Shown here in pieces: positions 21,992-46,290 of a stretch of DNA of 64,000 nucleotides (the first letter of the stretch is position 1; each line of letters starts with the position of its first letter). The notes under the pieces are model-generated. The model searched no databases and was not told the DNA's origin. It saw only the letters and a list, made by a program, of their open reading frames with translations. Source of the DNA: an uncultured Parvularculaceae bacterium (GTDB taxonomy: Bacteria; Pseudomonadota; Alphaproteobacteria; Caulobacterales; Parvularculaceae); contig CAMYLZ010000022.1 in the NCBI GenBank assembly GCA_947259375.1, positions 62,001 through 126,000 on the forward strand. The letters are read 5' to 3'. The translations under genes were made by a program, and so were the position numbers.

Positions 21992-23308
21992 ATGCGGATC
22001 GCAGAAATTATCCGGAAAAAGCGCGACGGCGGCGCGTTAAACGACGCCGAGATCGACCGGTTTGTGTCCGCGCTGGCAAGCGACGCCTTGCCGCCGGAGC
22101 AGGCCGCGGCCTTCGCCATGGCGGTGTTTTTCCGCTCAATGACCGCAGATGAGATCAGCACGCTGACGCTCGCCATGGCGCGTTCCGGCGATGTCATTGA
22201 CTGGCGTAATGAAAGCCTGCCCGGTCCGATTGTGGACAAGCATTCCACCGGCGGCGTCGGCGACAAGGTGAGTTTCGCCCTGGCCCCGATCGCAGCCGCG
22301 TGCGGTTGTTTCGTGCCGATGATCTCCGGTCGCGGCCTCGGCCATTCAGGCGGCACGCTCGACAAGATTGAAAGCATTCCGGGTTATCGCGTGCAGCCCG
22401 ATACGGAAACATTCAAGCGCGTCGTTCGCGATGTCGGTTGCGCCATCATCGGCCAGACCGGGAGCCTCGCACCGGCCGACCGTCGCCTTTACGCCATTCG
22501 CGATGTAACGGCCACGGTGGAATCGATCCCGCTGATCACCGCATCGATCCTTTCCAAGAAGATCGCGGCGGGCAATCATGCGCTGGTGATGGACATCAAG
22601 ACCGGATCGGGCGCGTTCATGCCGTCGCTCGAAGCGGCGGTTGCCCTGGCGCAAAGCATCGTCTCGACGGGCAACAAGGCCAATTTGAAAACCCGGGCGC
22701 TCATTACCGATATGGCGGAGCCGTTGGGGCTGACCGCAGGGAACGCCGTCGAAATTGCCGAGATCGTCGACTATCTGACCGGCGCGCGCCGGGAACCGCG
22801 CCTGCACGGCGTCGTTAAATCGCTCTGTATGGAAATGTTGCTGATGACCGGCATCGAAAAAGACGCCGATGTCGCGGCCGAACGTATAGAAAACGCCCTT
22901 GCCTCTGGACGCGCCGCGGAAAAATTCGGCCAGATGATCGCCGCGCTTGGCGGCCCGGCGGATTTTATGGAAAAGTCCGAAACCTACCTGCCAGCCGCGA
23001 CCTGCTCCGCCCCCATCATGGCAGAGCAGGAAGGATATCTCAGCGCTATCGACACGCGCCGCGTCGGGCTCGCGATTGTCGATCTCGGTGGCGGACGGGC
23101 GCGCGTCGACGATACGCTCGACCTTTCCGTCGGCTTTACCGAGATCGCCCCGATCGGCGCCGCTATTGGATTAGACCGGCCGCTGGCGATTGCGCATGCC
23201 GCAGACGAAGCGACGCTTGCGAGGGCGGTAAACGCCTATCTGGGCGCGGCGACGATCTCGGACGAAAAACCGGATGCGCGCCCGCTGATTTACCAATCCG
23301 TCAGCTGA
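21992..23308 (+). CDS. deoA: Thymidine phosphorylase
   Basis: 438-residue pyrimidine nucleoside phosphorylase that splits thymidine or deoxyuridine with phosphate into base and deoxyribose-1-phosphate. The family signature KHSTGGVGDK is at 83-92, with SGRGLGHSGGTLDKIESIPG downstream in the phosphate and base site and MDIKTGSGAFM near 205. Length matches E. coli DeoA (440). GGGAGG lies 12 bases before the ATG. It opens a five-gene deoxyribonucleoside operon; a 138-base gap with no clear operator separates it from the aminotransferase. Confidence 0.95.
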   Translation: MRIAEIIRKKRDGGALNDAEIDRFVSALASDALPPEQAAAFAMAVFFRSMTADEISTLTLAMARSGDVIDWRNESLPGPIVDKHSTGGVGDKVSFALAPIAAACGCFVPMISGRGLGHSGGTLDKIESIPGYRVQPDTETFKRVVRDVGCAIIGQTGSLAPADRRLYAIRDVTATVESIPLITASILSKKIAAGNHALVMDIKTGSGAFMPSLEAAVALAQSIVSTGNKANLKTRALITDMAEPLGLTAGNAVEIAEIVDYLTGARREPRLHGVVKSLCMEMLLMTGIEKDADVAAERIENALASGRAAEKFGQMIAALGGPADFMEKSETYLPAATCSAPIMAEQEGYLSAIDTRRVGLAIVDLGGGRARVDDTLDLSVGFTEIAPIGAAIGLDRPLAIAHAADEATLARAVNAYLGAATISDEKPDARPLIYQSVS

Positions 23309-23327: not shown

Positions 23328-23729
23328 ATGCCCTATGCTGATGACATGTTGATTGATCACGCGCTCGCAGCGCGCGAGCGCGCTTACGCCCCTTATTCGA
23401 AATTCAAGGTCGGCGCCGCCATCATTGATGAAAACGGGAAAATACATACCGGCTGCAATGTCGAGAATGCGGCCTATCCGCTCGGCAACTGCGCCGAAGC
23501 GTCCGCAATATCCGCCATGGTCGCAGCGGGCAGCCGCCGCATCACCAAGATCGCCATCGCCGGCGGGGCGGAACGGATCGAAGACTGCACCCCTTGCGGC
23601 GGCTGCCGGCAAGCCATTGCCGAATTCGCCAAGCCCGATACGATCATCCTCCTGAGAAAAGCCGATGGGTCGGTAAGCCGCTATGCAATGACGGAATTAT
23701 TACCGCACGCCTTCCGCCTGGAGCCGTAA
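23328..23729 (+). CDS. cdd: Cytidine deaminase
   Basis: 133-residue zinc enzyme converting cytidine or deoxycytidine to uridine or deoxyuridine, which DeoA and related phosphorylases then cleave. Zinc ligands C55 (in NCAE with catalytic E57), C90 and C93 (PCGGCRQ) are all present, and the length is that of the homotetrameric class. Nineteen bases follow deoA. A 173-base gap without a gene follows before deoB. Confidence 0.94.
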   Translation: MPYADDMLIDHALAARERAYAPYSKFKVGAAIIDENGKIHTGCNVENAAYPLGNCAEASAISAMVAAGSRRITKIAIAGGAERIEDCTPCGGCRQAIAEFAKPDTIILLRKADGSVSRYAMTELLPHAFRLEP

Positions 23730-23902: not shown

Positions 23903-25129
23903 TTGAATTTGGCGCGCGCACTTATCGGCATTCTGGATTCATTTGGCGTCGGCGCATCCGAAGATGCGAACCGTTTTGGCGACGCCGGCGCCAACACTTT
24001 TGCACATATTGCGCAAGCGTGCGCCGCCGGCGAGGCGGACAAGCCGGGCTTGCGTTCAGGGTCGCTCAACATTCCGAACTTGATGCGCCTTGGGCTGGGG
24101 GCGCTTGCCCGCGACGCGACTGGCGCGAAAATACCAGTGGCCGAACCCGGCGAGATTACCGGCGTTTACGGTTATGCGGCAGAAAAGAGTTTCGGCAAGG
24201 ATACGCCAAGCGGGCATTGGGAAATGATGGGCCTGCCCGTCGAGTTCGACTGGGGCATGTTCGACAAAGGCCCGCCGAGCTTTCCGAAAGAACTGCTTGA
24301 AGCGCTGATCGATGAAGGCGGTCTGCCGGGCGTCCTTGGCGACAAACACGCTTCCGGAACGGTCATCATTGACGAACTTGGCGAGGAACACATTAAAACC
24401 GGCAAGCCAATCGTCTACACCTCGGCGGACTCGGTGTTCCAGATCGCCGCGCATGAGACACATTTCGGCCTCGATCGTCTTTACGAGGTTTGCCTCATCG
24501 CCCGCAAACTCGTCGACAGATACAATGTCGGGCGCGTCATCGCCCGCCCATTTACCGGCGAGCGAAAGGATGAGTTTGAACGCACCGGCAATCGGCGTGA
24601 CTATGCAACGCCGCCGCACGCGCAAACGCTTCTCGATCTTTATGCTGAACAAGGCCGCCCGGTTATCGGTATTGGCAAAATTAGCGACATCTTCGCCGGC
24701 AGCGGCGTCACCAGGTCCGTAAAGGCAAACGGAAATGATGCTATTTTTGACGCCTGGCTAAAGGAAATCGAGACCGCGCCGGATGATGCGATCATCTTCG
24801 CCAATTTCGTTGATTTTGACTCGCTTTACGGCCATCGCCGCAATGTGGCGGGCTATGCCGCAGCGCTCGAAACGTTCGACAAGCGCATACCGGAACTTGA
24901 AGCCGCGCTGCGACCGGACGATGTCGTGATCCTGAGCGCCGATCATGGCTGCGATCCGACCTGGCCGGGCTCTGACCACACGCGCGAGTTCATTCCGGTT
25001 ATCGCATTTGGTGAAAAGCTCGGGCGCGGGTCAATCGGGCGGCGCGATACATTTGCCGATATCGGGCAGTCGCTGGCGGCGCATCTCGGCGTGGGGCCGC
25101 TGCGCACCGGCGCGTCATTTCTGGATTAA
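23903..25129 (+). CDS. deoB: Phosphopentomutase
   Basis: 408-residue alkaline-phosphatase-fold mutase that converts (deoxy)ribose-1-phosphate to the 5-phosphate using bound metal ions and a phosphothreonine. [11 protein letters not shown] gives the first metal aspartate, [12 protein letters not shown] the catalytic Thr, and [18 protein letters not shown] the second metal site. The start is TTG at 23903 or 23909; AAAGG sits 4 or 10 bases upstream respectively, and no ATG fits the family N terminus. It links DeoA and the PNP reactions to DeoC. Confidence 0.94.
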
Positions 25130-25151: not shown

Positions 25152-26168
25152 ATGACCCAGACGAATGTTATGGATCTCGACAAGCGTCGCAAAAAAGATG
25201 CGGGTGCGGCGGATACGGATATTACACGCAACCCCGGCACGCCGCTCAATGCAGACTGGATCGACGCTGTACGCGTCAATCTCTCCGCCGCAGAGCGTCG
25301 CATTACGACACTGTCCGGGCGGCGCACGGTCAAAAAAGATTGGCAGGCGGCGTGGCTGCTCAAAGCCATCTCGCTCATGGACCTGACGACGCTGGCAGGC
25401 GACGACACTGACGGCCGGGTGCGGCGATTATGCGCCAAAGCGCTGCGTCCGGTGCGGCCCGACTTGTTAAAAGATTTGGGTGCGGATAACCTCAATCTGA
25501 CCGTTGGCGCCGTCTGCGTCTATCATGCTTTCGTCAAGACCGCCGTCGAGGCGTTGAGAGGCTCGCCGGTCGAAATCGCCGCCGTCTCTACCGGATTTCC
25601 CGCCGGCCATGCGCCGTTTGAAACGCGACTCAAAGAGATCGAAGCATCCGTCGCCGACGGCGCTACGGAAATCGACATTGTCGTCAGCCGGCGGCATGTT
25701 CTGACCGCCAATTGGCGCGCGCTTTATGACGAAGTCAAAGCCTTCCGCGAGGCTTGCGGGCCCGCGCATCTCAAAGCCATTCTCGCCACCGGCGAACTCG
25801 GCTCCATCAGCAAAGTCGGCAAGGCCTCCATGGTCGCGATGATGGCCGGCGCGGATTTTATCAAGACCTCGACTGGCATGGAATCGATAAACGCCACCCT
25901 GCCCGTCAGCCTAGTGATGATGCGCGCCATCCGCGATTATCATGACGCAACCGGCTTCAAAGTCGGCTTTAAACCGGCCGGCGGCATTTCCAACGCCAAG
26001 ACCGCGCTGCAATATCTGGTTCTGGTAAAAGAAGAACTGGGCGATGAATGGCTGAGCCCCAAACTCTTCCGCTTCGGCGCCTCGCGTCTGCTCGGCGACA
26101 TTGAACGCCAGCTCGAACATCATGCGACCGGACGTTACTCGGCCGCCAACCGCCACCCGATGGGATAG
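25152..26168 (+). CDS. deoC: Deoxyribose-phosphate aldolase, long form
   Basis: 338-residue class I aldolase splitting 2-deoxyribose-5-phosphate into glyceraldehyde-3-phosphate and acetaldehyde. Schiff-base K238 lies in DFIKTSTG and the second catalytic K274 in GFKPAGGI. The N-terminal extension of about 60 residues makes it resemble the longer eukaryotic DERA type rather than E. coli DeoC (259). GGAAGGGG lies about 11 bases before the ATG. Only 7 bases separate its stop from the aldehyde dehydrogenase that can remove the acetaldehyde. Confidence 0.94.
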   Translation: MTQTNVMDLDKRRKKDAGAADTDITRNPGTPLNADWIDAVRVNLSAAERRITTLSGRRTVKKDWQAAWLLKAISLMDLTTLAGDDTDGRVRRLCAKALRPVRPDLLKDLGADNLNLTVGAVCVYHAFVKTAVEALRGSPVEIAAVSTGFPAGHAPFETRLKEIEASVADGATEIDIVVSRRHVLTANWRALYDEVKAFREACGPAHLKAILATGELGSISKVGKASMVAMMAGADFIKTSTGMESINATLPVSLVMMRAIRDYHDATGFKVGFKPAGGISNAKTALQYLVLVKEELGDEWLSPKLFRFGASRLLGDIERQLEHHATGRYSAANRHPMG

Positions 26169-26175
26169 ATCATCC

Positions 26176-28554
26176 ATGTCAAATGTTGCAGAAATTTTCG
26201 AGACCATGGAATACGGCCCGGCGCCGGAAGATGCGAGCTATGTGCGCGACTGGTTGAAAGCAAAATCCGCCGGCTTTGAGCATTTCATCAATGGCGGTTT
26301 CACCCGCGGCGGCGCCGATCAGCCTATGATCGAAAGCCACAACCCAGCGACCGGCGACAAGCTCGCCGCCTTTCCCGCCGCTGGCGAAGCTGAAGTGAAC
26401 GCCGCCGTCGATGCGGCCAAGGCTGCGTTCCCGAAATGGTCGAAACTTTCGGGCCACCAGCGCGCCAAATATCTCTATGCGCTGGCGCGTCTTATCCAGA
26501 AAAATTCGCGTTTTCTCGCCATCCTCGAAACGCTCGACAATGGCAAGCCGGTCCGCGAGACCCGCGATATCGACATTCCGCTCGTCGCACGCCACTTCTA
26601 CCATCATGCCGGCTGGGCGCAGCTTCAGGAAACGGAATTCTCTGACTACGAACCATTAGGGCCGGTCGGGCAAATCATCCCGTGGAATTTTCCGCTTTTG
26701 ATGCTTGCGTGGAAGATCGCGCCAGCGATCGCCATGGGCAACACGGTGGTCCTTAAGCCGGCTGAATATACGAGCCTGACGGCGCTCTATTTCGCCGAGC
26801 TGTGCAAGGAAGCGCAATTGCCGCCGGGCGTCGTCAACATCATCACCGGCGCGGGCGAAACCGGAAGCCTTATCGTCAACCATCCGGACATCGCCAAGAT
26901 CGCCTTCACCGGATCGACCGATGTCGGCCGCATCATCCGCCGCCAGACAGCCGGTTCCGGCAAAAAGCTCTCGCTAGAGCTTGGCGGCAAATCGCCCTTC
27001 ATCATTTTTGAAGACGCCGATCTCGACGGCGCGGTCGAAGGTCTTGTCGACGCCATCTGGTTTAATCAGGGCCAAGTTTGCTGCGCCGGCTCGCGCCTTC
27101 TCGTTGAGGAAAGCGTCGCCGACAAAGTAACGGAGAAAATCAAGCGCCGCCTGGAAGCATTCCGCATTGGCGATCCGCTCGACAAAGCGGTCGATATGGG
27201 CGCGATTGTCGATCCCGTCCAGCGCGACCGCATTCAGGAACTCGTCAAACAAGGGGAAAAGGAAGGCGGCGAGGTCTGGTGTCCGGACCTCAAAATGCCG
27301 GAAATCGGCTGCTTCTATCCGCCGACGCTGATCTCAGGCGTTTCGCCCAGCAACGTCGTTGCGCGCGAAGAGATTTTCGGACCAGTCCTCACATCCATGT
27401 CGTTCCGCACCCTGAAAGAAGCGATTGATCTCGCCAATAATTCGCGCTACGGCCTTGCCGCGACGATCTGGTCTGAAAATGTCAACCGTGCGCTTGAAGC
27501 CGCGGCGATGGTGAAAGCCGGCGTCGTCTGGATCAACACCACTAACGGCTTTGACGCCGCATGCGGCTTCGGCGGCTATCGCGAATCCGGTTTCGGCCGC
27601 GAAGGCGGGCGCGAAGGCGTTTATGAATATGTGAAGCTGAAAAAAGAATGGGGCGAGGTCGAAACGCCGCCGCCCGCTGTCGAGGTTACTGGCGCGCCTA
27701 GCGTCGTTGAAATCGACCAGACGCCCAAGCAATTCATCGGCGGCAAGCAAAAACGCCCGGACTGGGCGCGCACCATGCCCGTCGCCGCTCATGACGGCTC
27801 TTATGCGGGGCGCGTTTCCCTCGGCAATCGCAAGGATATTCGCGACGCCGTTGAAGCCGCCTTCAAGGCCGAGAGCTGGGGCGCGACCACCGGCCATGCG
27901 CGCGCGCAAATTCTCTATTTCATCGCCGAGAATTTTTCCAAGCGCGCTGACGAGTTCACCAAACGCTTGATGCAGCTCACTGGCGCGACGCGCGGCAAGG
28001 CCCGCGCCGAAGTTGACGCGACCGTCTCGCGGCTCTTCGCCTACGGCGCCTGGGCCGACAAATATGACGGCCTCGCCCATTCGCCGCCGCAACGCAATGT
28101 GGTGCTCGCCATGAACGAGCCGATCGGCATCATCGGCGTCGTCTGCCCCGACGCATCGCCGCTTCTTTCCTTCGTTTCCATGTGGGCCCCTGCGGTCGCC
28201 ATGGGCAACCGCGTCGTGGTCGTGCCGTCAGAACGCCATGCGCTCCTCGCAACGGACTTCTACCAGGTGCTCGAAACCTCGGATGTCCCCGCCGGCGTCG
28301 TCAACATCGTCACCGGCGAGCGTGCGCCGCTGGTCAAAACGCTCGCAGAGCATGATCAGGTCGAAGCGATCTGGCATCACGGGGCCCCAGAGGAATCGCA
28401 ATTTGTCGAGGCGGCCTCAGCCGACAATCTGAAACGCGTGTGGACCAATCAGGGCCGCGCCCGCGACTGGAAATCGCCGCATGCCGGCGAAGGCCGCGAG
28501 TTTTTGCGGCATGCTTCCGAGGTCAAGAATATCTGGCTGCCCTATGGGGATTAG
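26176..28554 (+). CDS. ALDH16-type two-domain aldehyde dehydrogenase
   Basis: 792 residues holding two ALDH modules. The first (about 40-505) is complete: [11 protein letters not shown] near 170-180, the NAD loop FTGSTDVG, catalytic E268 in LELGGKSP and nucleophile C302 in GQVCCAGS. The second (about 530-792) keeps the Rossmann-like part ([17 protein letters not shown], then [10 protein letters not shown]) but has no LELGGK glutamate and no GQxC cysteine, and ends with [10 protein letters not shown] and IWLPYGD. That layout is the ALDH16 family, whose physiological substrate is unsettled. The position 7 bases after deoC points to acetaldehyde oxidation to acetate or another product of deoxyribose breakdown. 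Confidence 0.88.
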
Positions 28555-28670: not shown

Positions 28671-28708
28671 GACGCTTTGGATTTGAAAAGCCGAAACTCG
28701 CTCTTTTC

Positions 28709-29065
28709 TCAATCATTAGATTGTTGAGGCAAATTCAAACGCGCGCTGCGGCCATCGACCCGTAGCCAAAGCGCGAGCACCAGCCATGCAAATAGCGTGA
28801 AGCATATTATGATGCCCGATATTCGACTGGATTGTTCCCAGCTAAAAGAATGCTCGCTAAAAATGACTGGGCCTAACACCCCAAAAATGAGAATGTTCTG
28901 AACAACCGCCAACGCAACAGCAACCGCAGTAACCAGCTGTTCTTCGAAAACTGTTTTGTCGGGAAATAAGCTTGAGAAACTATTCACCAGCGCAGCACGC
29001 ATTACCACCGGCCAAAACAGAAACCATCCACCCAACAGGCTGCTTTCCAAAATGTTAGAAACCAT
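28709..29065 (-). CDS. Hypothetical small membrane protein
   Basis: 118 residues with three predicted helices (about 10-25, 45-70 and 80-103) and short charged ends; the C terminus RVDGRSARLNLPQQSND is probably cytoplasmic. I recognise no family. Codon use looks less GC-rich than the neighbouring genes, with many A/T third positions, which may mark later acquisition. It is placed just downstream (11 bases) of the allantoicase stop on the same strand, so it could be the last gene of the alc-uraD-puuE operon. Confidence 0.5.
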   Translation of the reverse strand: MVSNILESSLLGGWFLFWPVVMRAALVNSFSSLFPDKTVFEEQLVTAVAVALAVVQNILIFGVLGPVIFSEHSFSWEQSSRISGIIICFTLFAWLVLALWLRVDGRSARLNLPQQSND

Positions 29066-29076
29066 TAAACAGCACC

Positions 29077-30060
29077 TTACCTCACTTTTCGCCCAAACAA
29101 CCGCAACCGGCTGACCCCGCCATCGGGAATGATATTGAGGCGGACGAAACGCACGGCCTCGTGTTTCTCGATTTCTGACGCGAACACATGCTTGGCGTCC
29201 GCCTTCAATTTTTGTTCCGGCAAGATCACCGGCCAGTTCTCAGCGCCGGCCAGCGCTTCTTCGTCGCTTAATTCATCGCCGCAGGCCTGAATGAAGCAGC
29301 GGTCCGGGTAATTGCCCTTGAAGTGCGCGGTGTCGACGATGATCTTCTCGATGACGCCGGGATGGCCGAGTTTTAACACCGCCCAGTCATGGCCAGGCTC
29401 GCGCCGGCGGCGCGTTTCCCAGCCATCGCCCATATTCACGCCGCGCCCTGGCGCGATCATGTTGGCGACGCGCCCGAAATGCTCGTCATTAGCGCCGAGC
29501 CCGCGCCCGCCCCACTCCATGGCGGCCAGATCGATCACTTCATCGGCGCCGACACTCGACCAGTCAATGTCGACGGTTCCATAAACCCGTAAGCGCGCGA
29601 CGCCGCCATCGGGAAAAATGTTGAGCCGCACATGGGTCCAGACTTGATTATTCTCAATAGCGATGAACCTGCGATCGTCGCCCTTTAGGTCTGTCCGTTC
29701 AACAAGCGGCGTCCAGGACATGCCCCCCGCCGGAACGTCATCACTGCAGTTGCAAACCTCAATCGATGCCGCCGGCGGATAATTGCCGGTAAAATGGCGC
29801 GTGTCGATTTCGAGACCGGCGATGCGGCCCGGCCAGCCCAGCTTCACGACGCACCAGTCATGGCCGGGCGTTCGTTTACGTCGGCTTTCCCAGCCATCCA
29901 TCCATTTTCCGTGCTCGTCATATTTATCCGGAATGAAGATGGGATCGGCGGGCGAGATCAACCGCGATTTGTCCGCAAAAAAATCATCCGTCGCGTAAAC
30001 AACCTCGCCTCCAAGCCGCGGCTGGGCGAGATCGACAAGTTTCGAAAAATCAGACGACAT
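29077..30060 (-). CDS. alc: Allantoicase
   Basis: 327-residue enzyme hydrolysing allantoate to ureidoglycolate and urea. The protein is an internal duplication: DDFFADKSRLISP, GWESRRKRTPGHDW and DTRHFTGNYP in the first half are echoed by DEHFGRVANMIAPG, GWETRRRREPGHDW and DTAHFKGNYP in the second, as in known allantoicases. The ATG at 30060 overlaps the uraD stop (TGATG); a TTG one codon earlier is also possible. Third gene of puuE-uraD-alc. Confidence 0.95.
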   Translation of the reverse strand: MSSDFSKLVDLAQPRLGGEVVYATDDFFADKSRLISPADPIFIPDKYDEHGKWMDGWESRRKRTPGHDWCVVKLGWPGRIAGLEIDTRHFTGNYPPAASIEVCNCSDDVPAGGMSWTPLVERTDLKGDDRRFIAIENNQVWTHVRLNIFPDGGVARLRVYGTVDIDWSSVGADEVIDLAAMEWGGRGLGANDEHFGRVANMIAPGRGVNMGDGWETRRRREPGHDWAVLKLGHPGVIEKIIVDTAHFKGNYPDRCFIQACGDELSDEEALAGAENWPVILPEQKLKADAKHVFASEIEKHEAVRFVRLNIIPDGGVSRLRLFGRKVR

Positions 30061-30584
30061 CAATTGATACCTGCTATGACGGAAAGGCGAATGGCGGCAA
30101 TGCGATGAATCTGTTCAATCGCTGCTGCAAATTCCTTATCTGCGTCATTGTCAATGCGCTGGCGAAACGCCAGCAAGATACTTTTGCGGTCATGACCCTT
30201 GACCGCAATGATGAATGGAAAGCCGAATTTTTCGTTGTAGCGTTCATTCAAGGTCATGAACTCGGCGAATTCCTCCGGGCTGCATTGATCGAGCCCGGCG
30301 CCTTTTTGTTCGGAATTCGATTCATCCGTCATCTCACCGGCGATGGCGGCGCGACCGGCGAGTTCGGGGTGTGCGCGGATCAGCGCCAATTGCCTTTCGC
30401 TGCCCGCCTCGTCAACGGCGGCACGCATCAACGCCCGCAAGGCGGAGAGCTCATCCGCTTCGGCTTTTTGCACGCGCGGCCAGACGGCATCGGCGACCCA
30501 TGGCGAAGCCTCGTAAACGCCGCCAAATATATCGAGAAACTGCTGCTTGTTCATGGCGCTCGGCGCCGGATTGAATTTCGTCAT
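30060..30584 (-). CDS. uraD: OHCU decarboxylase
   Basis: 174-residue 2-oxo-4-hydroxy-4-carboxy-5-ureidoimidazoline decarboxylase, which makes (S)-allantoin in urate breakdown. The family signature AHPELAG with the catalytic His region, NERYNEKFGFPFI and the C-terminal EIQ/IEQIHRIAAIRL helix are present. The ATG at 30584 overlaps the puuE stop as ATGA and the stop overlaps the alc start, so the three are translationally coupled. HiuH, which makes its substrate, is encoded divergently 1 kb away rather than fused. Confidence 0.94.
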   Translation of the reverse strand: MTKFNPAPSAMNKQQFLDIFGGVYEASPWVADAVWPRVQKAEADELSALRALMRAAVDEAGSERQLALIRAHPELAGRAAIAGEMTDESNSEQKGAGLDQCSPEEFAEFMTLNERYNEKFGFPFIIAVKGHDRKSILLAFRQRIDNDADKEFAAAIEQIHRIAAIRLSVIAGIN

Positions 30585-31504
30585 GATGTTGATTGAGACG
30601 CCGGGTGATGTTTCATCCAGTGATTGGCGATATCGATGCGGCGGCAAAACCAGACATCCGGCTTGTCCGCAACATATCTTACAAACCGCTCTAGCGCCGC
30701 AAAGCGTCCTGGCCGCCCGATGATGCGGCCATGCAGCCCGATGGACATCATTTTCGGCGCCGTCTCGCCTTCTGCATAAAGAACGTCAAACGAGTCTCGC
30801 AAATAGGCGAAAAACTGATCGCCCGAATTAAACCCTTGCGCCGTCGCAAACCGCATATCGTTGGCGTCGAGCGTATAAGGAACAATAAGATGGTCCTTGC
30901 CCTCGACCCTGGCCCAGAATGGCAAATCGTCGCTATAGTCATCCGCGTCATAGGCAAAGCCGCCATGCTCGACCACCAACCGGCGCGTATTGGGACTGGT
31001 GCGCCCGGTATACCACCCAAGCGGGGCCGCGCCGGTCAGCGACTTGATGATCTGCACCGCTTCAGCGATATGCGCGTGCTCCATGTCTTCAGGCACATGC
31101 TGGTAATTGATCCATTTGAGCCCGTGCGAACAGATTTCATGCCCGTCCAACAAAAACTCATCCACAACGCACGGATTGCGCTCCAGCGCGGTTGCGACCG
31201 CGAACACGGTTATCGGAATCCGGAAGTCCCGAAACAGCTTGATCAATCGCCAAACGCCCGCACGTGAGCCATATTCATAGATCGACTCCATACTCATATG
31301 GCGCGCGCCCTTGACCTCCGGCGCATTAATAATCTCAGACAGAAACGTCTCCGCCCCCGCATCGCCATGCAACACGGCGTTCTCGCCGCCTTCTTCGTAA
31401 TTGACGACAAATTGCACAGCGATTTTCGCACCGCCCGGCCAGCCCGCATGCGGCGGCGCGCCTTTGTAGCCGGCAAGGTCTCTCGGATAGCTGTCGTCGG
31501 TCAT
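30581..31504 (-). CDS. puuE: Allantoinase PuuE (polysaccharide deacetylase fold)
   Basis: 307-residue metal-independent-type allantoinase of the NodB/polysaccharide-deacetylase superfamily, opening allantoin to allantoate. YPRDLAGYKGAPPHAGWPGG at the start, NYEEGGE, SMESIYEYGSRAGVWR, EICSHGLKWI, GWYTGRTSPNTRRL and YDADDYSDDLPFW are the PuuE hallmarks. It differs from dihydroorotase-type AllB allantoinases. First gene of the minus-strand operon, facing hiuH across a 112-base gap. Confidence 0.94.
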   Translation of the reverse strand: MTDDSYPRDLAGYKGAPPHAGWPGGAKIAVQFVVNYEEGGENAVLHGDAGAETFLSEIINAPEVKGARHMSMESIYEYGSRAGVWRLIKLFRDFRIPITVFAVATALERNPCVVDEFLLDGHEICSHGLKWINYQHVPEDMEHAHIAEAVQIIKSLTGAAPLGWYTGRTSPNTRRLVVEHGGFAYDADDYSDDLPFWARVEGKDHLIVPYTLDANDMRFATAQGFNSGDQFFAYLRDSFDVLYAEGETAPKMMSIGLHGRIIGRPGRFAALERFVRYVADKPDVWFCRRIDIANHWMKHHPASQSTS

Positions 31505-31571
31505 GGCGCCATCAAAATCGCGTAAACACTCAAAAATTTGGAAGCAACTGTTATGGCGGGCGCCGGCTATT

Positions 31572-31581
31572 TTGTCTACAA
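31572..31581. promoter_or_regulatory. GntR-like operator candidate in the puuE/hiuH gap
   Basis: TTGTCTACAA is an imperfect palindrome (TTGT and ACAA arms around CT) of the form used by FCD-class GntR repressors. It lies 67 bases from puuE and 35 bases from hiuH, so one repressor could control both purine operons. No purine regulator gene is in the window; the match is a short one and may be chance. Confidence 0.4.
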
Positions 31582-31616
31582 TATCCGGCTAACGATAAGA
31601 AACGCGCGATGGAAAA

Positions 31617-31973
31617 ATGGCCGGCCTGACAACGCATATTCTCGACCTGACGCATGGCGTCCCCGCCGCAGGCGTGCGCATCGTTCTGAGCGCTGAAGAG
31701 GCCCCGGGCGGTTTTGCGCCCATCAAGGAAATCACCACCAATGAGGACGGGCGCGCGCCAGCACCGCTGATTGACGCCGCCGATGTCAAAGCCGGCGCCT
31801 ACCGGCTCGATTTCCACATTGGCGACTATTTTCGGCGCAAGGGAATCGTCCTCGACGAACCGGCCTTTCTGGACATTATTCCCATCGCCTTCGCCATCGC
31901 CGATCCGCAAGCACACTATCACGTGCCGTTGCTTGTATCGCCCTATGGCTACAGCACATATAGAGGAAGCTGA
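31617..31973 (+). CDS. hiuH: 5-hydroxyisourate hydrolase (transthyretin-like)
   Basis: 118-residue enzyme that hydrolyses 5-hydroxyisourate, the product of urate oxidation, to OHCU. The N-terminal LTTHILDLTHG has catalytic H7, a mid Arg lies in the NEDGRAP segment, and the protein ends in the diagnostic YRGS tetrapeptide (115-118) that separates HIU hydrolases from transthyretin. No signal peptide, so it is cytosolic. It opens the plus-strand purine operon, 3 bases before xdhA. Confidence 0.95.
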   Translation: MAGLTTHILDLTHGVPAAGVRIVLSAEEAPGGFAPIKEITTNEDGRAPAPLIDAADVKAGAYRLDFHIGDYFRRKGIVLDEPAFLDIIPIAFAIADPQAHYHVPLLVSPYGYSTYRGS

Positions 31974-31976
31974 AGT

Positions 31977-33443
31977 TTGAACGACTGCGTCCAATTTGTA
32001 CTCGACGGAAAGATTGTCGAAGCCCGAAACGTCGACCCGACGACAACTGTCCTGCAATATCTGCGGCGCGAATTGCGCCGGACCGGAACCAAAGAAGGCT
32101 GCGCAGAAGGCGATTGCGGCGCTTGCACGGTTGCGATCGGCGAACTGAAAAACGAGGAGATCGAATATCGCGCTATCAATGCCTGTATTGTATTCCTGCC
32201 GACGCTGAACGGGAAAGAGTTGGTGACGGTCGAAAGCCTCTCGAAAGACGGCGTTCTGCACCCGGCGCAACAGGCAATGGTTGATTGCCATGGCTCTCAA
32301 TGCGGCTTTTGCACGCCCGGTTTCATCATGTCGCTGTTCGTCCAATATGAAAAAGGCGCGCGGAGCGATCGCAATTCCCTATGCGATGCGCTTGCGGGAA
32401 ATTTGTGCCGCTGCACTGGCTATGGGCCAATTCTCGATGCCGGCCGGAGCATGAGCGAATTGCCTGCGGCGCCCCTGCGTCACGCGCAGGCGGAGACGAT
32501 CCGATTGCTGACCAATATTTCCCGGCATGACGGTCTTGCGCTGCCTTACGGCAACGAAGGTCAAATCTACCATTATCATGCGCCCAAGACGCTCGATGCG
32601 CTGTTGCAGCTTCGGGCCGAATACCTCGACGCAGTGCTTGTCGCCGGCGCGACGGATGTCGGGTTGTGGGTGACAAAACAACACCGCAAACTCGGGACTG
32701 TCATTGCCTTGAACGAGGTTTCCGATCTCAAATTTGTCGACGAAACCGCCGACGGCCTCGAAATCGGCGCCATGACGCCTTATGCGGACGCTCATAAAGC
32801 GCTCGCGCAATGGCATCCCGATTTCGGAGAAGTCGTGCGGCGCCTTGGCTCTGCCCAGATCAGGAACAGCGGCACTATCGGCGGCAATATCGCCAACGGC
32901 TCTCCCATTGGCGACACCATGCCCTTGCTCATCGCTGGCGGCGCACGCCTCCGTTTGCGCAGCATCCGCGGAGCACGCGACATTCCGCTTGAGGATTTTT
33001 TCATCGCTTACGGCGAGCAGGACCTTCGCGACGACGAGATTGTGGAGCGCATTTTCCTGCCGCACCTCGCCAAAGGCGCGCATTTCCGCGCATACAAGAT
33101 ATCGAAACGCTTCGATCAGGATATCTCCGCCCTTTGCGCAGCATTCAACTTCACAATCGACGATGGGCGCGTTAGCGCGGTGCGCGTCGCGTTTGGCGGC
33201 ATGGCGGCGACGCCAAAGCGAGCAATCAAATGCGAAGCGGCGCTCAAGGGCGCCGAATGGTCGCGTGCGTCTATAGAAACAGCCGCAGCTGTGCTCAGCG
33301 AAGATTTCGTACCGATTACCGACATGCGCGCCTCTGCGGATTATCGGATGACGGCGGCGGAGAACCTGTTGCGCAAGGCTTTTCTGGAATTTGACGGCGC
33401 CGAAGCACGCGTTCTGAAGCCGGTGGCGGTCGCGCATGGATAA
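31977..33443 (+). CDS. xdhA: Xanthine dehydrogenase small subunit (Fe-S/FAD)
   Basis: 488-residue electron-transfer subunit. Plant-type 2Fe-2S cysteines C42, C47, C50 and C70 come first, then the second 2Fe-2S domain with C109, C112, C144 and C146 (CGFC, CRCTGYG), then a FAD domain from about 190 with IRNSGTIGGNIANGSPIGD. Electrons from purine hydroxylation pass through it to NAD+. Start TTG at 31977 with GAGGAAG upstream; no ATG fits. It overlaps xdhB by 8 bases. Confidence 0.95.
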   Translation: MNDCVQFVLDGKIVEARNVDPTTTVLQYLRRELRRTGTKEGCAEGDCGACTVAIGELKNEEIEYRAINACIVFLPTLNGKELVTVESLSKDGVLHPAQQAMVDCHGSQCGFCTPGFIMSLFVQYEKGARSDRNSLCDALAGNLCRCTGYGPILDAGRSMSELPAAPLRHAQAETIRLLTNISRHDGLALPYGNEGQIYHYHAPKTLDALLQLRAEYLDAVLVAGATDVGLWVTKQHRKLGTVIALNEVSDLKFVDETADGLEIGAMTPYADAHKALAQWHPDFGEVVRRLGSAQIRNSGTIGGNIANGSPIGDTMPLLIAGGARLRLRSIRGARDIPLEDFFIAYGEQDLRDDEIVERIFLPHLAKGAHFRAYKISKRFDQDISALCAAFNFTIDDGRVSAVRVAFGGMAATPKRAIKCEAALKGAEWSRASIETAAAVLSEDFVPITDMRASADYRMTAAENLLRKAFLEFDGAEARVLKPVAVAHG

Positions 33444-35778
33444 GCCCCTCGACATCATTGCACCGGAAGGTCGTATCAAGGGCGATGTCAGCCTATCTGT
33501 TCCGCATGACAGCGCCGAAAAGCATGTCACGGGCGCCGCGCTCTATACGGATGACATTCCTGAATTTTCAAACCAGTTGCACATCTATATCGCCAAGAGC
33601 AATGTCGCCCGCGGGCGTATTTCGACGTTTGACCTTGCGCCGGTCCGTGCTGCGCCTGGTGTTGCCGCTGTCCTGACGGCGGACGATATTCCGGGCGTCA
33701 ATGATTACAGCCCGATCGCCGGCGACGACCCCCTTTTCGCTGAAGGCGAGGTTTTTTACGCCGGCCAGCCTCTCTTCGCCGTCGCCGCCGAAAGCCTTGC
33801 CCAAGCGCGCGCCGCCGCCGCGCTGGCCGTGGTTGCATATGACAAAATGCAACCACTTGTCACAATAGCCGACGCACGCGAAGCCGGCGCGCATTTAGAC
33901 TTGGCCGCGCCCATGCGCCTCGGCGACGCAGGCAGTGCGCTTGCAACCGCCGCCCTTCATGCAACCGGCTGGCGCAAGATCGGCGGGCAGGATCATTTCT
34001 ACCTCGAAGGACAAGCTGCATTCGCCATTCCAAAGGAAGGCGGCGACGTTCATGTCTACTCGTCCACGCAAAACCCAACCGAGGGGCAGCATGTGATCGC
34101 CCGCGTGCTCGGCGTTCCGCAAAATGCGGTGACGGTGGAATTGCGGCGCATGGGCGGCGGATTTGGCGGCAAGGAAACGCAACCCTCGCTATTCGCCGCC
34201 ATCGCCGCGCTAACCGCGGTCAAGACCGGACGCCCGGCGAAAGTCACCCTTGACCGTGACGACGATATGATCATGACCGGCAAGCGGCATGATTTCGAAG
34301 TGACTTACGATGTCGGCTTTGACAGCGAAGGCGTTATCGAAGGCGCGAAGTTTAATTTCGAATCGCGCTGCGGTTATTCGGCAGATCTGTCCGCCGCAAT
34401 CAATGACCGCGCGATGTTCCATGCGGACAACGCTTATTTTCTGAAAAACGCAGAGATCGTTTCACACCGCTACCGTACCGACACCGTGTCGAATACGGCG
34501 TTTCGCGGGTTTGGCGGCCCACAAGGCATGATCGCCATTGAGTGCGCGATGGACGAGGCGGCGTTTGCACTTGGCCTCGACCCTTTCGATATCCGAATCC
34601 GGAATATCTACGCCGCGATTGACCGAAACGAGACGCCTTACGGTCAAAAAGTCGAAGACTCCATCGCTCGAGAATTGATGGAAACGCTGGCGGAACAGGC
34701 TGATTATCGCGCCCGGCGCCGTCAAATTGATGACTTCAACAAAGCGAACGACATCCTCAAAAAAGGCATCGCCCTCACCCCAGTCAAGTTCGGCATTTCC
34801 TTCACGACGACGCACCTGAATCAGGCCGGCGCGCTCATCCATATCTATACGGATGGTAGCATCTTTTTGAACCATGGCGGCACAGAGATGGGCCAGGGCC
34901 TGATGACAAAGGTGGCGCAAATCGTCGCCCATGAATTTCAGGTTGATATTGATCGCATCAAGATCAGCGCCACCGCCACCGACAAAGTGCCGAACACATC
35001 GGCGACCGCCGCGTCATCGGGTTCCGACATTAACGGCATGGCGGCGCGCGCCGCCGCGATTACGATCAAGAAGCGTCTGATGTCGTTTGCCTCTGAAACT
35101 TACGGCTGTTCACCGGCAAGCGTCGTTTTCGACAATAACAAGGTCCATGCGGGCGGCGAAGTCATCGATTTTGCCGATCTCGTGAAAGCCGCCTATTTCG
35201 CCCGGGTTTCCCTTTCATCGACCGGCTATTATCGCACGCCGAAAATCCATTATGACAAGGCAAAACAAAAAGGCAGGCCATTTTATTATTTTGCTTATGG
35301 CGCATGCGTAAGCGAAGTCGTTATCGATACGCTGACCGGCGAGAACCGCGTCTTACGCGCTGACATCCTCCATGATGTCGGCCGACCTTTGAACCCGGCG
35401 GTCGATTATGGTCAGATCGAAGGCGGGTTCATGCAAGGCCTCGGCTGGCTGACCACGGAAGAAATCGTTTACGATGAGGCCGGCAACCTCAAGACCCATG
35501 CTCCGTCTACATATAAAATACCGACTGCGAGCGACCGGCCGGAAATCCTGAATATCGCGATATGGAAACACGGTGAGAACCGCGAGGACACAATCCACAA
35601 ATCGAAAGCCGTGGGCGAGCCGCCGCTGATGCTTGCGATCTCCGCCTTCTCGGCGCTTGGCCAGGCGGTGACGGCGGCGGCGGACCATAAGGCATGCGCG
35701 CGGCTGAACGCCCCGGCAACGCCCGAAGAAATTCTTCGCGCAATCAAGGAAGCGCGCCAGCGCGCGGCGCAAGCCTAG
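33436..35778 (+). CDS. xdhB: Xanthine dehydrogenase molybdenum subunit
   Basis: 780-residue Mo-cofactor subunit converting hypoxanthine to xanthine to urate. RMGGGFGGKETQPS near 236-250, AFRGFGGPQG, the Moco-binding NHGGTEMGQGL, GSDINGMAARAA and the catalytic glutamate in VGEPPLMLA near the C terminus are all in place. It lies between xdhA (8-base overlap) and xdhC (2-base gap). Size matches bacterial XdhB (about 770-780). Confidence 0.96.
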   Translation: MDKPLDIIAPEGRIKGDVSLSVPHDSAEKHVTGAALYTDDIPEFSNQLHIYIAKSNVARGRISTFDLAPVRAAPGVAAVLTADDIPGVNDYSPIAGDDPLFAEGEVFYAGQPLFAVAAESLAQARAAAALAVVAYDKMQPLVTIADAREAGAHLDLAAPMRLGDAGSALATAALHATGWRKIGGQDHFYLEGQAAFAIPKEGGDVHVYSSTQNPTEGQHVIARVLGVPQNAVTVELRRMGGGFGGKETQPSLFAAIAALTAVKTGRPAKVTLDRDDDMIMTGKRHDFEVTYDVGFDSEGVIEGAKFNFESRCGYSADLSAAINDRAMFHADNAYFLKNAEIVSHRYRTDTVSNTAFRGFGGPQGMIAIECAMDEAAFALGLDPFDIRIRNIYAAIDRNETPYGQKVEDSIARELMETLAEQADYRARRRQIDDFNKANDILKKGIALTPVKFGISFTTTHLNQAGALIHIYTDGSIFLNHGGTEMGQGLMTKVAQIVAHEFQVDIDRIKISATATDKVPNTSATAASSGSDINGMAARAAAITIKKRLMSFASETYGCSPASVVFDNNKVHAGGEVIDFADLVKAAYFARVSLSSTGYYRTPKIHYDKAKQKGRPFYYFAYGACVSEVVIDTLTGENRVLRADILHDVGRPLNPAVDYGQIEGGFMQGLGWLTTEEIVYDEAGNLKTHAPSTYKIPTASDRPEILNIAIWKHGENREDTIHKSKAVGEPPLMLAISAFSALGQAVTAAADHKACARLNAPATPEEILRAIKEARQRAAQA

Positions 35779-35780
35779 TC

Positions 35781-36809
35781 ATGACTGTCGACTGGATAGG
35801 ACGCGCCATCACGCTGATCGGCAAGGGTCAGCCCGTTGCGGTGATCACGGTCTGCGCCGTCGAAGGATCAGCGCCGCGCGAGCCGGGCGCAAAGATGATC
35901 ATTTCGCGGGATGCGCAATGGGGCACGATCGGCGGCGGCGCTCTGGAGCACTTGGCGAGCATGCGCGCAGGTGCGCTGCTCAAAGAAACGCCCGGCATTA
36001 TCCGTTTTGAGGAATTCCCGCTTGGCCCCGCCCTCGGCCAATGCTGCGGCGGGCGGGTTGTTGTCAGTTACGAGTTTCTCTGCGAACGGGACCTCGATTG
36101 GCTTGGCAAGGCGCAAACGGCGATAGCGTGCAACGGCAAGGTCACCCTTGAGCGAAACATTCCTGATGGGCCGTGGCGCATTGTCGAGGGAGCCGACGGT
36201 AAAGCCGATGCGCCGCTTTCGTTTTTTGCCGCGGATGACACGGCTCTCAGCGAGCGGCGCCCGGTCCCGGAGAGTATCGCACGAGTTCGCGAACACGTCC
36301 GCGACCGGCGCACGCCGGTGTTCCTTTTCGGCGCCGGACATGTCGGCAAGGAGATCGCCCGCTGTCTAGCCCCCTTGCCTGTCACGCTTTCATGGATCGA
36401 CCGGCGGGATGGCGTATTTCCGGATAGCGCCGGCGCAATGGTCCAGTATCTCCAAACTGACGACGAGACTGGCCTTGTCGCATCAGCACCGGCGGGCGCA
36501 TGTTTTTTCGTGATGACGCACAGCCATCAACTCGACTTCAATCTCGTCCGGGAAATTCTAAAACGCGGCGACAGCGCCTATTGCGGGCTTATCGGGTCGG
36601 CAACCAAACGCGCACGCTTCAGGCGGCGGCTGATACGCGCGGGCGCCAGCGACGCGCAAATCGAGCATTTGTGCTGCCCCATCGGCGCAGACGGGTTGAA
36701 CAGCAAGCTGCCTGCGGTCATTGCTCTTTCTGCCGTGCATGAGATGTTGCTCGCGGATCAATCATTCCGAACACAATCAACAAAAAAGGCGGACAATGAT
36801 CGACATTGA
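35781..36809 (+). CDS. xdhC: Xanthine dehydrogenase accessory protein XdhC
   Basis: 342-residue chaperone that binds and sulfurates the Mo cofactor and inserts it into XdhB. The N-terminal XdhC/CoxI domain has EGSAPREPGAKM and TIGGGALEH; the C-terminal Rossmann part has VFLFGAGHVGKEIAR and THSHQLDFNLVREIL, GLIGSATKRARFRRRL. The ATG at 35781 follows the xdhB stop by 2 bases; the C-terminal 14 bases overlap puuD. Confidence 0.94.
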   Translation: MTVDWIGRAITLIGKGQPVAVITVCAVEGSAPREPGAKMIISRDAQWGTIGGGALEHLASMRAGALLKETPGIIRFEEFPLGPALGQCCGGRVVVSYEFLCERDLDWLGKAQTAIACNGKVTLERNIPDGPWRIVEGADGKADAPLSFFAADDTALSERRPVPESIARVREHVRDRRTPVFLFGAGHVGKEIARCLAPLPVTLSWIDRRDGVFPDSAGAMVQYLQTDDETGLVASAPAGACFFVMTHSHQLDFNLVREILKRGDSAYCGLIGSATKRARFRRRLIRAGASDAQIEHLCCPIGADGLNSKLPAVIALSAVHEMLLADQSFRTQSTKKADNDRH

Positions 36810-37995
36810 TTTTTTAGCCTGGGCGAATATGGGCGTGCGATGGCTGCATTTTATCGCCGGCATCGCATGGATCGGCGCCTCGTTTTACTTTGTCTGGCTC
36901 GATAATTCGCTGCGGGCCAATGACCGGCTCGCGCCGGGCGTTGCCGGCGACCTTTGGGCTGTTCATGGCGGCGGCTTTTATCATAATGAAAAGTTTCTGG
37001 TGGCGCCGCCCCAATTGCCCAAAGAGCTGCACTGGTTCAAATGGGAAGCCTACACGACGTGGCTGTCCGGCTTCGCGCTGTTGATCATCATCTATTATGT
37101 GGGTGCGGAAACTTATCTTATTGACCGTTCCAAACTCGACATCGGGCAAGGCGCGGCAATCCTGATCGGCCTCGCTGCACTGGCCGGCGGCTGGATCATG
37201 TACGATCTGTTGTGCAAGTCCCCGCTGGCGAGGAACCAGGCTTTGCTTAGCGGCGCCTGGTTTGCGCTGCTGATCGCCGCAACCGCTTTTCTGACGCGTG
37301 TTTTCACCGACAAAGGCGCATTCATGCATGTTGGCGCGATTATCGGCACGGTGATGGTCGCGAATGTTTTTTTCGTTATTATTCCAAATCAGAAAAAGAC
37401 AGTCGCCGCGATGATCGCCGGCGAAGCCCCCGATGCGGCGCTTGGCGCCGCCGCAAAACAGCGATCCGTCCACAATAATTACATGACCCTGCCTGTGCTG
37501 TTGATCATGATCTCCGGCCATTACCCGCTGCTCGTCAGTCATCAATATAACTGGTTATTGCTGGCCGGATTTTCCGTTGCGGCGGTCATGATCCGCCATT
37601 TCTTTAACTTGAAACACAAAGGCGCGATGCAACCGGCCCTCGCCGCCGGCGCTGCAACGGTCTTTCTGGCGACAATTCTCGCCGCCTCGGTCAAGCCGAC
37701 CGCCGCCATCGCCGTCGCGCCTGATGAGAAAGTCGAGGACAGCGTTATCAGCGTCATGATGAACCGACACTGCGTTTCCTGCCATGCGGCAGAACCCGTC
37801 GACCCGCTATTCGCGGCGCCGCCGGGCGGCCTGTCGCTCGAGACCCTTGAAGCTGCGCGCAAAAACGCCTTCGGCATTCGCTTGCAGGCGGTTGACGGCG
37901 ATATCATGCCGCTTGGCAACGCAACCGGCATGACACAGGAAGAGCGCGCCATGCTTGGCGCCTGGCTCGATCAGCAAGCGGATGATACGCCATGA
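36796..37995 (+). CDS. puuD: Membrane urate oxidase PuuD with C-terminal cytochrome c
   Basis: 399-residue urate hydroxylase of the PuuD (DUF989) class. About 8 helices span residues 1-310, starting with DFLAWANMGVRWLHFIAGIA (20 residues), and carry FHNEKF-like HGGGFYHNEKF; a C-terminal domain of about 75 residues has one heme c site CVSCH followed by DGDIMPLGNATGMT with the Met ligand. PuuD replaces oxygen-dependent uricase: it oxidises urate and passes electrons into the respiratory chain. It overlaps xdhC by 14 bases and allA by 4 (ATGA). Confidence 0.94.
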   Translation: MIDIDFLAWANMGVRWLHFIAGIAWIGASFYFVWLDNSLRANDRLAPGVAGDLWAVHGGGFYHNEKFLVAPPQLPKELHWFKWEAYTTWLSGFALLIIIYYVGAETYLIDRSKLDIGQGAAILIGLAALAGGWIMYDLLCKSPLARNQALLSGAWFALLIAATAFLTRVFTDKGAFMHVGAIIGTVMVANVFFVIIPNQKKTVAAMIAGEAPDAALGAAAKQRSVHNNYMTLPVLLIMISGHYPLLVSHQYNWLLLAGFSVAAVMIRHFFNLKHKGAMQPALAAGAATVFLATILAASVKPTAAIAVAPDEKVEDSVISVMMNRHCVSCHAAEPVDPLFAAPPGGLSLETLEAARKNAFGIRLQAVDGDIMPLGNATGMTQEERAMLGAWLDQQADDTP

Positions 37996-38495
37996 GCGCA
38001 CAACGCATCATTCGCCCTGAGCCGCTGAGCGCGGCAGCATTCGCGCCCTTTGGCGACATTATCGATGTCGCCAATGCAAAGCGCCAGGTCCCCATAAATC
38101 AAGGCTATACGACCCGGTTTCACGACCTCGCCAACATTGACGTGTCCGACAAAGGCGGCGAAACATGCGTTTCCATCTTTCGCTCCACGCCCATGGATCC
38201 GGTGACCATACGGCTGATGGAACGTCATCCGCTAGGCAGCCAGGCATTCATCCCCTTGGAACGCCGTCCTTATCTCGTCGTCGTAGCGCCGCCAGGCGAT
38301 CTTGTTCCTGACAACATCAAAGTTTTCCGCGCCCGCGGCGATTTAGGCGTCAATTATGCAAAAGGCGTCTGGCATCATTTTTCGCTAGCGCTCAGCCAGC
38401 CTAGCGACTTCCTGGTGATTGACCGCGCCGGGCCCGGCGATAATCTCGACGAGATTGAACTCGCTGACCATCAACAATTCACAATTGAACCATAA
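37992..38495 (+). CDS. allA: Ureidoglycolate lyase
   Basis: 167-residue cupin-fold enzyme releasing glyoxylate and urea from ureidoglycolate, the last step after allantoicase. FAPFGDII near the start, RLMERHPLGSQAFIPL, GVNYAKGVWHHFSLAL with the metal-binding His pair, and FLVIDRAGPGDNLDE are family features. Its start overlaps the puuD stop. No urease genes are in the window, so urea may be exported or used through a distant locus. Confidence 0.93.
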   Translation: MSAQRIIRPEPLSAAAFAPFGDIIDVANAKRQVPINQGYTTRFHDLANIDVSDKGGETCVSIFRSTPMDPVTIRLMERHPLGSQAFIPLERRPYLVVVAPPGDLVPDNIKVFRARGDLGVNYAKGVWHHFSLALSQPSDFLVIDRAGPGDNLDEIELADHQQFTIEP

Positions 38496-38509
38496 CCGTT
38501 AGATTCCGC

Positions 38510-40812: not shown

Positions 40813-40822
40813 GGACAACGCC

Positions 40823-41647: not shown

Positions 41648-41649
41648 CC

Positions 41650-43041: not shown

Positions 43042-43047
43042 CAGGCC

Positions 43048-46252: not shown

Positions 46253-46290
46253 GCTTTCTTCCTGCCAGGTCGGTAAGACCATTCGTTACT

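Follow-up and report, generated by a model that had tools for sequence, protein, structure and literature searches.

The ALDH16 gene of the window (by which we mean the whole 64,000-nucleotide stretch of Parvularculaceae DNA that was analysed) directly follows deoC, and this neighbourhood recurs among its relatives in other phyla and in two different gene arrangements. From the linkage to deoC and the conservation of catalytic residues, we infer that ALDH16 is quite likely an NAD-dependent, non-acylating acetaldehyde dehydrogenase dedicated to the breakdown of deoxynucleosides, with acetaldehyde as the presumed substrate.

The ALDH16 gene and its operon

The original prediction had described a two-domain aldehyde dehydrogenase (ALDH) gene placed 7 bases past deoC in a deoA-cdd-deoB-deoC operon, and here the coordinates agree, with each of the four neighbours scoring above its curated NCBIfam cut-off (Table 1). 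All five genes form a single same-strand run, which by gene content can be read as a putative deo operon. By its TIGR00126 score, the deoC product is a deoxyribose-phosphate aldolase; its start is inferred to be the ATG at 25152 (GGAAGG lies upstream), and its stop codon occupies 26166-26168. Around the operon, promoter and terminator patterns did not exceed their frequency in shuffled sequences.

Table 1. Coordinates of the deo operon genes and of the parts of ALDH16 in the window.
Feature	Position	Strand	Evidence
deoA, thymidine phosphorylase	21992..23308	+	TIGR02643, 634.5 bits (cut-off 570.7)
cdd, cytidine deaminase	23328..23729	+	TIGR01354, 148.7 bits (cut-off 113.65)
deoB, phosphopentomutase	23903..25129	+	TIGR01696, 484.7 bits (cut-off 341.2)
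deoC, long ALDH16-linked subfamily, 338 aa	25152..26168	+	TIGR00126, 155.6 bits (cut-off 117.3)
deoC stop-to-ALDH16 start gap, 7 bases	26169..26175	+	
ALDH16, 792 aa	26176..28554	+	Open frame, ATG start; full-length match to 6mvr
Active ALDH part, about residues 1-500	26176..27675 (boundary approximate)	+	PF00171 at residues 50-489; N171, K194, E268, C302, E399
C-terminal pseudo-ALDH domain, NAD-binding-domain-like	27691..28551 (boundary approximate)	+	PF00171 14-237 only; without Cys region

The window protein was compared with the sequences in the PDB, and this confirmed the predicted ALDH16 architecture, as residues 3-791 of 792 aligned with the ALDH16 of Loktanella (6mvr) at 929 bits. Among the matches listed (60 of 153), every one apart from two Loktanella sequences aligned with the ALDH part alone. 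The full first module was likewise found as predicted, with the catalytic Glu and Cys at exactly E268 and C302, and N171, K194 and E399 are also present. Judged by sequence, the protein thus appears to combine the two hallmarks of ALDH16, namely an N-terminal ALDH part that carries Cys and Glu, and an extra NAD-binding-like C-terminal domain that lacks the catalytic part; over its full length, the protein has 6mvr as its best match. As for the second module, which had been said to have lost both catalytic residues, it is correct that the Cys region is absent and that Asn takes the Glu position in a pairwise alignment, but it is not a whole ALDH with two losses. Rather, PF00171 is matched only over 14-237 of 461 and most of the catalytic domain is missing, which rules out a complete ALDH with two point losses.

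The top NCBIfam models for the ALDH part are those of phenylacetaldehyde, aminobutyraldehyde and betaine-aldehyde dehydrogenases, and because all of these fall under their cut-offs, acetaldehyde cannot be named as the substrate from sequence alone. The model of the acetaldehyde dehydrogenase ExaC gave 468.3 bits and did not reach its cut-off of 900.

Behind the deo operon lies a near-complete purine catabolism cluster (window 28700-41650) that encodes allantoicase, OHCU decarboxylase, allantoinase PuuE, HIUase, a member of the urate oxidase N-terminal family, ureidoglycolate lyase, an amidohydrolase, adenosine deaminase and a nucleoside phosphorylase, along with xanthine dehydrogenase genes that were recognised by eye. 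Since this cluster is downstream of ALDH16, purine and pyrimidine deoxynucleosides could both feed DeoC at the locus. Between ALDH16 and the allantoicase gene there is a minus-strand ORF (28709-29065, 118 aa), membrane-like by eye, for which no Pfam match was found at E 1e-5. Genes for DUF1302, LolA-like/DUF1329 and MMPL proteins make up a single minus-strand run at 41650-46282.

Linkage of ALDH16 to deoC

A contig scan found at least 589 relatives, and the best 80 of these were kept, a set skewed to close relatives. Among these best 80 of at least 589, which span eight named phyla, 76 loci have deoC, always upstream and on the strand of the ALDH match, and in 72 of the 76 no more than 600 bases separate the two. 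By phylum, this best-80 set has deoC in 39/40 Pseudomonadota, 17/17 Bacteroidota, 5/8 Chloroflexota, 4/4 Myxococcota, 3/3 Acidobacteriota, 2/2 Gemmatimonadota, 1/1 Rhodothermota, 1/1 Bdellovibrionota and 4/4 unranked loci. Its four loci without deoC are L005, L017, L023 and L049, three of which have a contig end less than 2 kb upstream; DeoC is encoded elsewhere in three of the four genomes. The other nucleoside genes are near few of the same best 80 loci (deoB 16/80, deoA 15/80 and cdd 7/80), so the tie is to deoC specifically, and a tie to nucleoside genes in general could be rejected.

To escape the bias towards close relatives, a second set of evenly drawn genomes (887 from five phyla, with phylum names taken from the locus used as centre) was searched with a profile of the ALDH16 C-terminal domain built from 30 sequences. 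The cut in the window's phylum was 279 bits, where the next ALDH scored 136, and in the other four phyla it was E 1e-45, which takes in the stronger members only. With these cuts, 146 of the 887 genomes were positive: 23/249 in the window's phylum (Pseudomonadota, as judged from its nearest relatives), 42/198 Bacteroidota, 52/151 Chloroflexota, 10/149 Acidobacteriota and 19/140 Myxococcota. It had been put forward as a refuting outcome that ALDH16 genes elsewhere show no tie to deoC, and the opposite was found. DeoC (TIGR00126) is encoded in 145 of the 146 positives (23/23, 42/42, 52/52, 10/10 and 18/19, in the same order), and 129 of the 146 have deoC upstream on the same strand within the stretch examined (22/23, 39/42, 40/52, 10/10 and 18/19). 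As background, with every sampled genome searched in both phyla, DeoC occurs in 61/249 genomes of the window's phylum and in 142/198 Bacteroidota; the association of DeoC with the C-terminal domain has a Fisher p of 2e-16 in the former and 1e-7 in the latter, with relatedness considered to genus level only, and of 3e-9 when the window's phylum is counted by genus.

The 17 positives without a same-strand upstream deoC in the stretch comprise G055, where the DeoC and ALDH16 genes are both at contig ends, three Bacteroidota, one Myxococcota and 12 Chloroflexota. In the Chloroflexota, deoC is up to 5.2 kb upstream in some genomes, on the opposite strand in two and outside the stretch in ten, one of which is a contig edge; at L161 and L158, DeoC lies roughly 14 and 30 kb away along the contig. 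Six Chloroflexota (L197-L202) carry a fused ALDH16 with no deoC in 5.5-6.9 kb of upstream sequence, and have DeoC elsewhere in the genome. No DeoC was found in the sampled genome G819 or, from the first scan, in the metagenome-assembled genome G249 (L005), and both of these loci are less than 2 kb from a contig end. Conversely, 38 of the 61 DeoC genomes in the window's phylum and 100 of the 142 in Bacteroidota are without the C-terminal domain, and because so many do without, ALDH16 is dispensable for the DeoC pathway. Gemmatimonadota, a sixth sampled phylum, have the top share of the C-terminal domain (101/150 genomes, with split-like scores and frames in 11 of the 101); deoC adjacency in this phylum rests on two loci from the first scan, L066 and L068, as the 20 sampled loci have a flank of only about 1.5 kb.

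As a control, we took genomes without the ALDH16 C-terminal domain and examined the surrounding 8-14 kb at 60 of their DeoC sites, comprising all 39 sites of 38 genomes from the window's phylum and a single site from each of 21 of 100 Bacteroidota (hand-picked down the score list). In phmmer searches with the window's ALDH part as query, an ALDH was found at 0/60 of these sites at E 1e-8 or better. Elsewhere this query retrieved other ALDHs down to 169 bits, so it should pick up most ALDHs, though distant acylating types might escape it. The phylum sampling and the 60 sites together rule out a neighbourhood by chance.

Split ALDH16 and the linked DeoC subfamily

An unexpected result of the sampling was that ALDH16 is split in 77 genomes, where an active ALDH of about 500 aa is encoded next to a stand-alone C-terminal pseudo-domain of about 290 aa. 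The remaining positives among the 146 have a fused gene (65), a broken fused gene (1) or the C-terminal domain alone (3); these counts include the centres L018, L039, L053 and L061, and 18 of the 23 fused genes in the window's phylum were called by frame length. Split pairs occur in 36 Bacteroidota, 6 Acidobacteriota, 17 Myxococcota and 18 Chloroflexota, and deoC is upstream on the same strand in 72 of the 77 (36/36, 6/6, 16/17 and 14/18, respectively). Among the 42 positive Bacteroidota, 39 have a separate C-terminal domain gene, and 36 of these 39 show the order deoC, ALDH, C-terminal domain. Wherever a sampled genome has the C-terminal domain as a separate gene, that gene adjoins its ALDH, with three exceptions. 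These three orphans (L107 3934-4893, L115 7606-8478 and L117 7747-8619) belong to closely related Bacteroidota and have neither ALDH nor deoC in the stretch, with DeoC on another contig. The split-form domain is homologous to that of Loktanella and not to other ALDHs, as judged for L084 by its PDB match (6mvu, 231.8 bits in all and 168.8 over residues 500-766, with other ALDHs at 109.1 or less) and for the others by profile A2.

In a tree of the ALDH part, the split and fused proteins are sister clades with SH-aLRT values of 99 and 99 (52 thinned rows, quick tree search, rooted on other ALDHs with long outgroup branches), while in the C-terminal domain tree one branch parts fused from split (100; unrooted, 29 rows). 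In the DeoC tree, DeoC of the fused loci is a clade (100), beside which stands DeoC of the split loci, 10 of 11 in a weaker fork (81), and all ALDH16-linked DeoC are set apart from control DeoC with a value of 88, which is not strong, long branches being present. Because the fused form is separated in each of the three trees (DeoC, ALDH and C-terminal domain), the genes appear to have been co-inherited since before the fusion or fission. L173 was considered as a true split form and rejected, since all three trees place it with the fused loci and a frame break is its simplest explanation. In a Gemmatimonadota sequence (L273 1-2343) with a fused-type score, one in-frame stop lies between the ALDH part and the C-terminal domain, which may reflect a recent re-split or else an error.

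The linked DeoC also differ in sequence from the controls. On comparing 106 fused-locus, 73 split-locus and 60 control DeoC, we noticed that residues such as K96, R180, D316 and Q320 (338-aa frame; K80, R164, D300 and Q304 if counted from base 25200) are near-invariant in both linked groups and rare in controls. A strict pattern of what we take to be the Schiff-base motif is present in 177/180 linked and 46/60 control DeoC.

One locus in the Myxococcota genome G846 (L154 6181-8822) joins DeoC and ALDH in one 635-aa frame beside a stand-alone C-terminal domain gene, which comes directly after the fusion frame or slightly overlaps it. Among loci showing both genes, this is the only one with DeoC and ALDH16 in one frame; of the other long frames in high-GC genomes, the three inspected (L066, L032 and L043) gave no support for a fusion, as their genes lie in different overlapping frames. 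The ALDH of the L154 fusion keeps Cys and Glu and is probably inactive, judging from the missing catalytic-domain stretch that includes E399 and from the Asp at the Asn position. Being one case in one assembly, L154 is no more than suggestive of a physical tie between DeoC and ALDH, and for a stable DeoC-ALDH16 complex this fusion and the gene linkage speak only indirectly.

Proposed function and alternative readings

In the scheme that we propose, DeoA (or purine nucleoside phosphorylase) and DeoB would supply 2-deoxyribose-5-phosphate, which the distinct long DeoC would cleave to glyceraldehyde-3-phosphate and acetaldehyde. ALDH16 would then oxidise acetaldehyde to acetate by means of C302 and E268, with the C-terminal pseudo-domain serving as a structural partner of the ALDH. 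Removal of acetaldehyde would presumably pull the aldolase forward, its reaction being described as reversible in the part of PMC8346489 consulted, and would hold a toxic aldehyde low. Acetyl-CoA synthetase would convert the acetate to acetyl-CoA; because this enzyme (Acs, 1001 bits, cut-off 725) is encoded in the window's genome, acetate can enter metabolism there. The presence of E268 argues for hydrolysis to the acid and not for CoA transfer, a reading made from sequence, and ALDH6 is recorded as having Asn at this position (PMC10650815, in part). Moreover, in L045 and L072, two loci from Paraburkholderia, a gene that by eye resembles a PfkB-type sugar kinase comes after deoC-ALDH16, which is fitting for deoxyribose use; growth of Paraburkholderia on deoxyribose was attributed partly to a kinase/aldolase route (Price et al., 2019; PMC6365646). 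Within the portion of that article's text consulted, the phrase 'aldehyde dehydrogenase' is absent, and its Fig. 4C may show the gene.

The linkage to deoC would fit equally well if the substrate were glyceraldehyde-3-phosphate (ALDH16 being a non-phosphorylating dehydrogenase) or deoxyribose or deoxyribose-5-phosphate. The ALDH superfamily includes glyceraldehyde and glyceraldehyde-3-phosphate dehydrogenases, and the D-glyceraldehyde dehydrogenase model does match the window protein, under its cut-off (367.7 of 760 bits). However, this match is exceeded by ExaC (468.3 bits) and by phenylacetaldehyde dehydrogenase (525.4 bits), although bits are only roughly comparable across models, and it is textbook knowledge that glyceraldehyde-3-phosphate enters glycolysis directly and needs no dedicated enzyme; such substrates therefore strike us as quite improbable. 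Still less can be said for a general aldehyde detoxification gene merely located in nucleoside operons, which we hold to be barely credible. ALDHs are often broad and Aldedh is matched 14 times in the genome, across 12 open frames, but a single-gene tie that persists across phyla and in both arrangements, with no other ALDH at the 60 control sites, speaks against it.

Alternatively, ALDH16 might be mainly structural, its C-terminal domain docking on DeoC to channel or regulate, with ALDH activity secondary. Several observations lean this way: the C-terminal domain accompanies DeoC in fused and split forms, the adjoining DeoC is a separate subfamily with near-invariant residues of its own, the DeoC-ALDH fusion of L154 has a decayed ALDH without E399, and human ALDH16A1 is presented as a pseudoenzyme with a suggested protein-binding role (PMC8160307 and PMC10650815, in part). 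Set against these, all 201 related bacterial loci checked retain C302 and E268 (at least one contig, L032/L137, being counted twice), and because of this the activity seems to be under selection, so that we think a mainly structural role improbable. Our preferred reading thus stays with an active acetaldehyde dehydrogenase.

Relation to known systems and significance

The pairing proposed here for DeoC and ALDH16 resembles that of DmpFG, in which an acetaldehyde-releasing aldolase is paired with an acetaldehyde-using dehydrogenase, though DmpF is CoA-acylating and of an unrelated fold. The deo operons without ALDH16, which we take to be of the E. coli type, are similar to the window in that DeoC has deoA, deoB or cdd nearby in 29 of the 60 control stretches, but they differ in having no ALDH in the stretch and a DeoC outside the ALDH16-linked subfamily. 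Among the closest known systems is the ALDH16 of Loktanella sp. (6mvr, 6mvs, 6mvt and 6mvu), which matches the window protein at full length, with an active ALDH part and the C-terminal domain; we came across no role or gene context for it, and the deoC context is what the present analysis adds. The Loktanella enzyme is described as a unique dimer resembling the tetramer of classical ALDHs (PMC8160307, in part). Among the titles and abstract openings listed in searches of the open-licence literature (40 of 182 papers in one case), we found no report of the ALDH16-deoC tie or of the split form.

Human ALDH16A1, here compared by description only, shares the family with the window protein by published naming. 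In the parts of the two sources consulted, it is a pseudoenzyme linked with gout (PMC8160307, PMC10650815), its substrate is listed as unknown, and it is without the catalytic triad (PMC10650815), whereas the bacterial ALDH16 have their catalytic residues. The human protein may descend from the bacterial deoC-ALDH16 module. A more far-reaching proposal, which we advance as speculation and consider unlikely, is that DeoC, ALDH and the pseudo-domain constitute an ancient acetaldehyde-passing module in which the pseudo-domain docks the specialised DeoC, and that human ALDH16A1 is a leftover scaffold acting on DERA and deoxynucleoside breakdown. If true, this could explain the reported gout link of ALDH16A1, as purine nucleoside phosphorylase makes deoxyribose-1-phosphate together with bases that become urate.

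For the family as a whole, the tie to deoC, which recurs in several phyla and under two gene arrangements, gives ALDH16 a concrete pathway and, with the substrate as inferred, would assign in many bacteria the step of deoxynucleoside catabolism that deals with acetaldehyde. Moreover, the split form explains the extra ALDH16 domain as a separable part, and the bacterial tie to deoC suggests where the role of the human pseudoenzyme ALDH16A1 might be sought.
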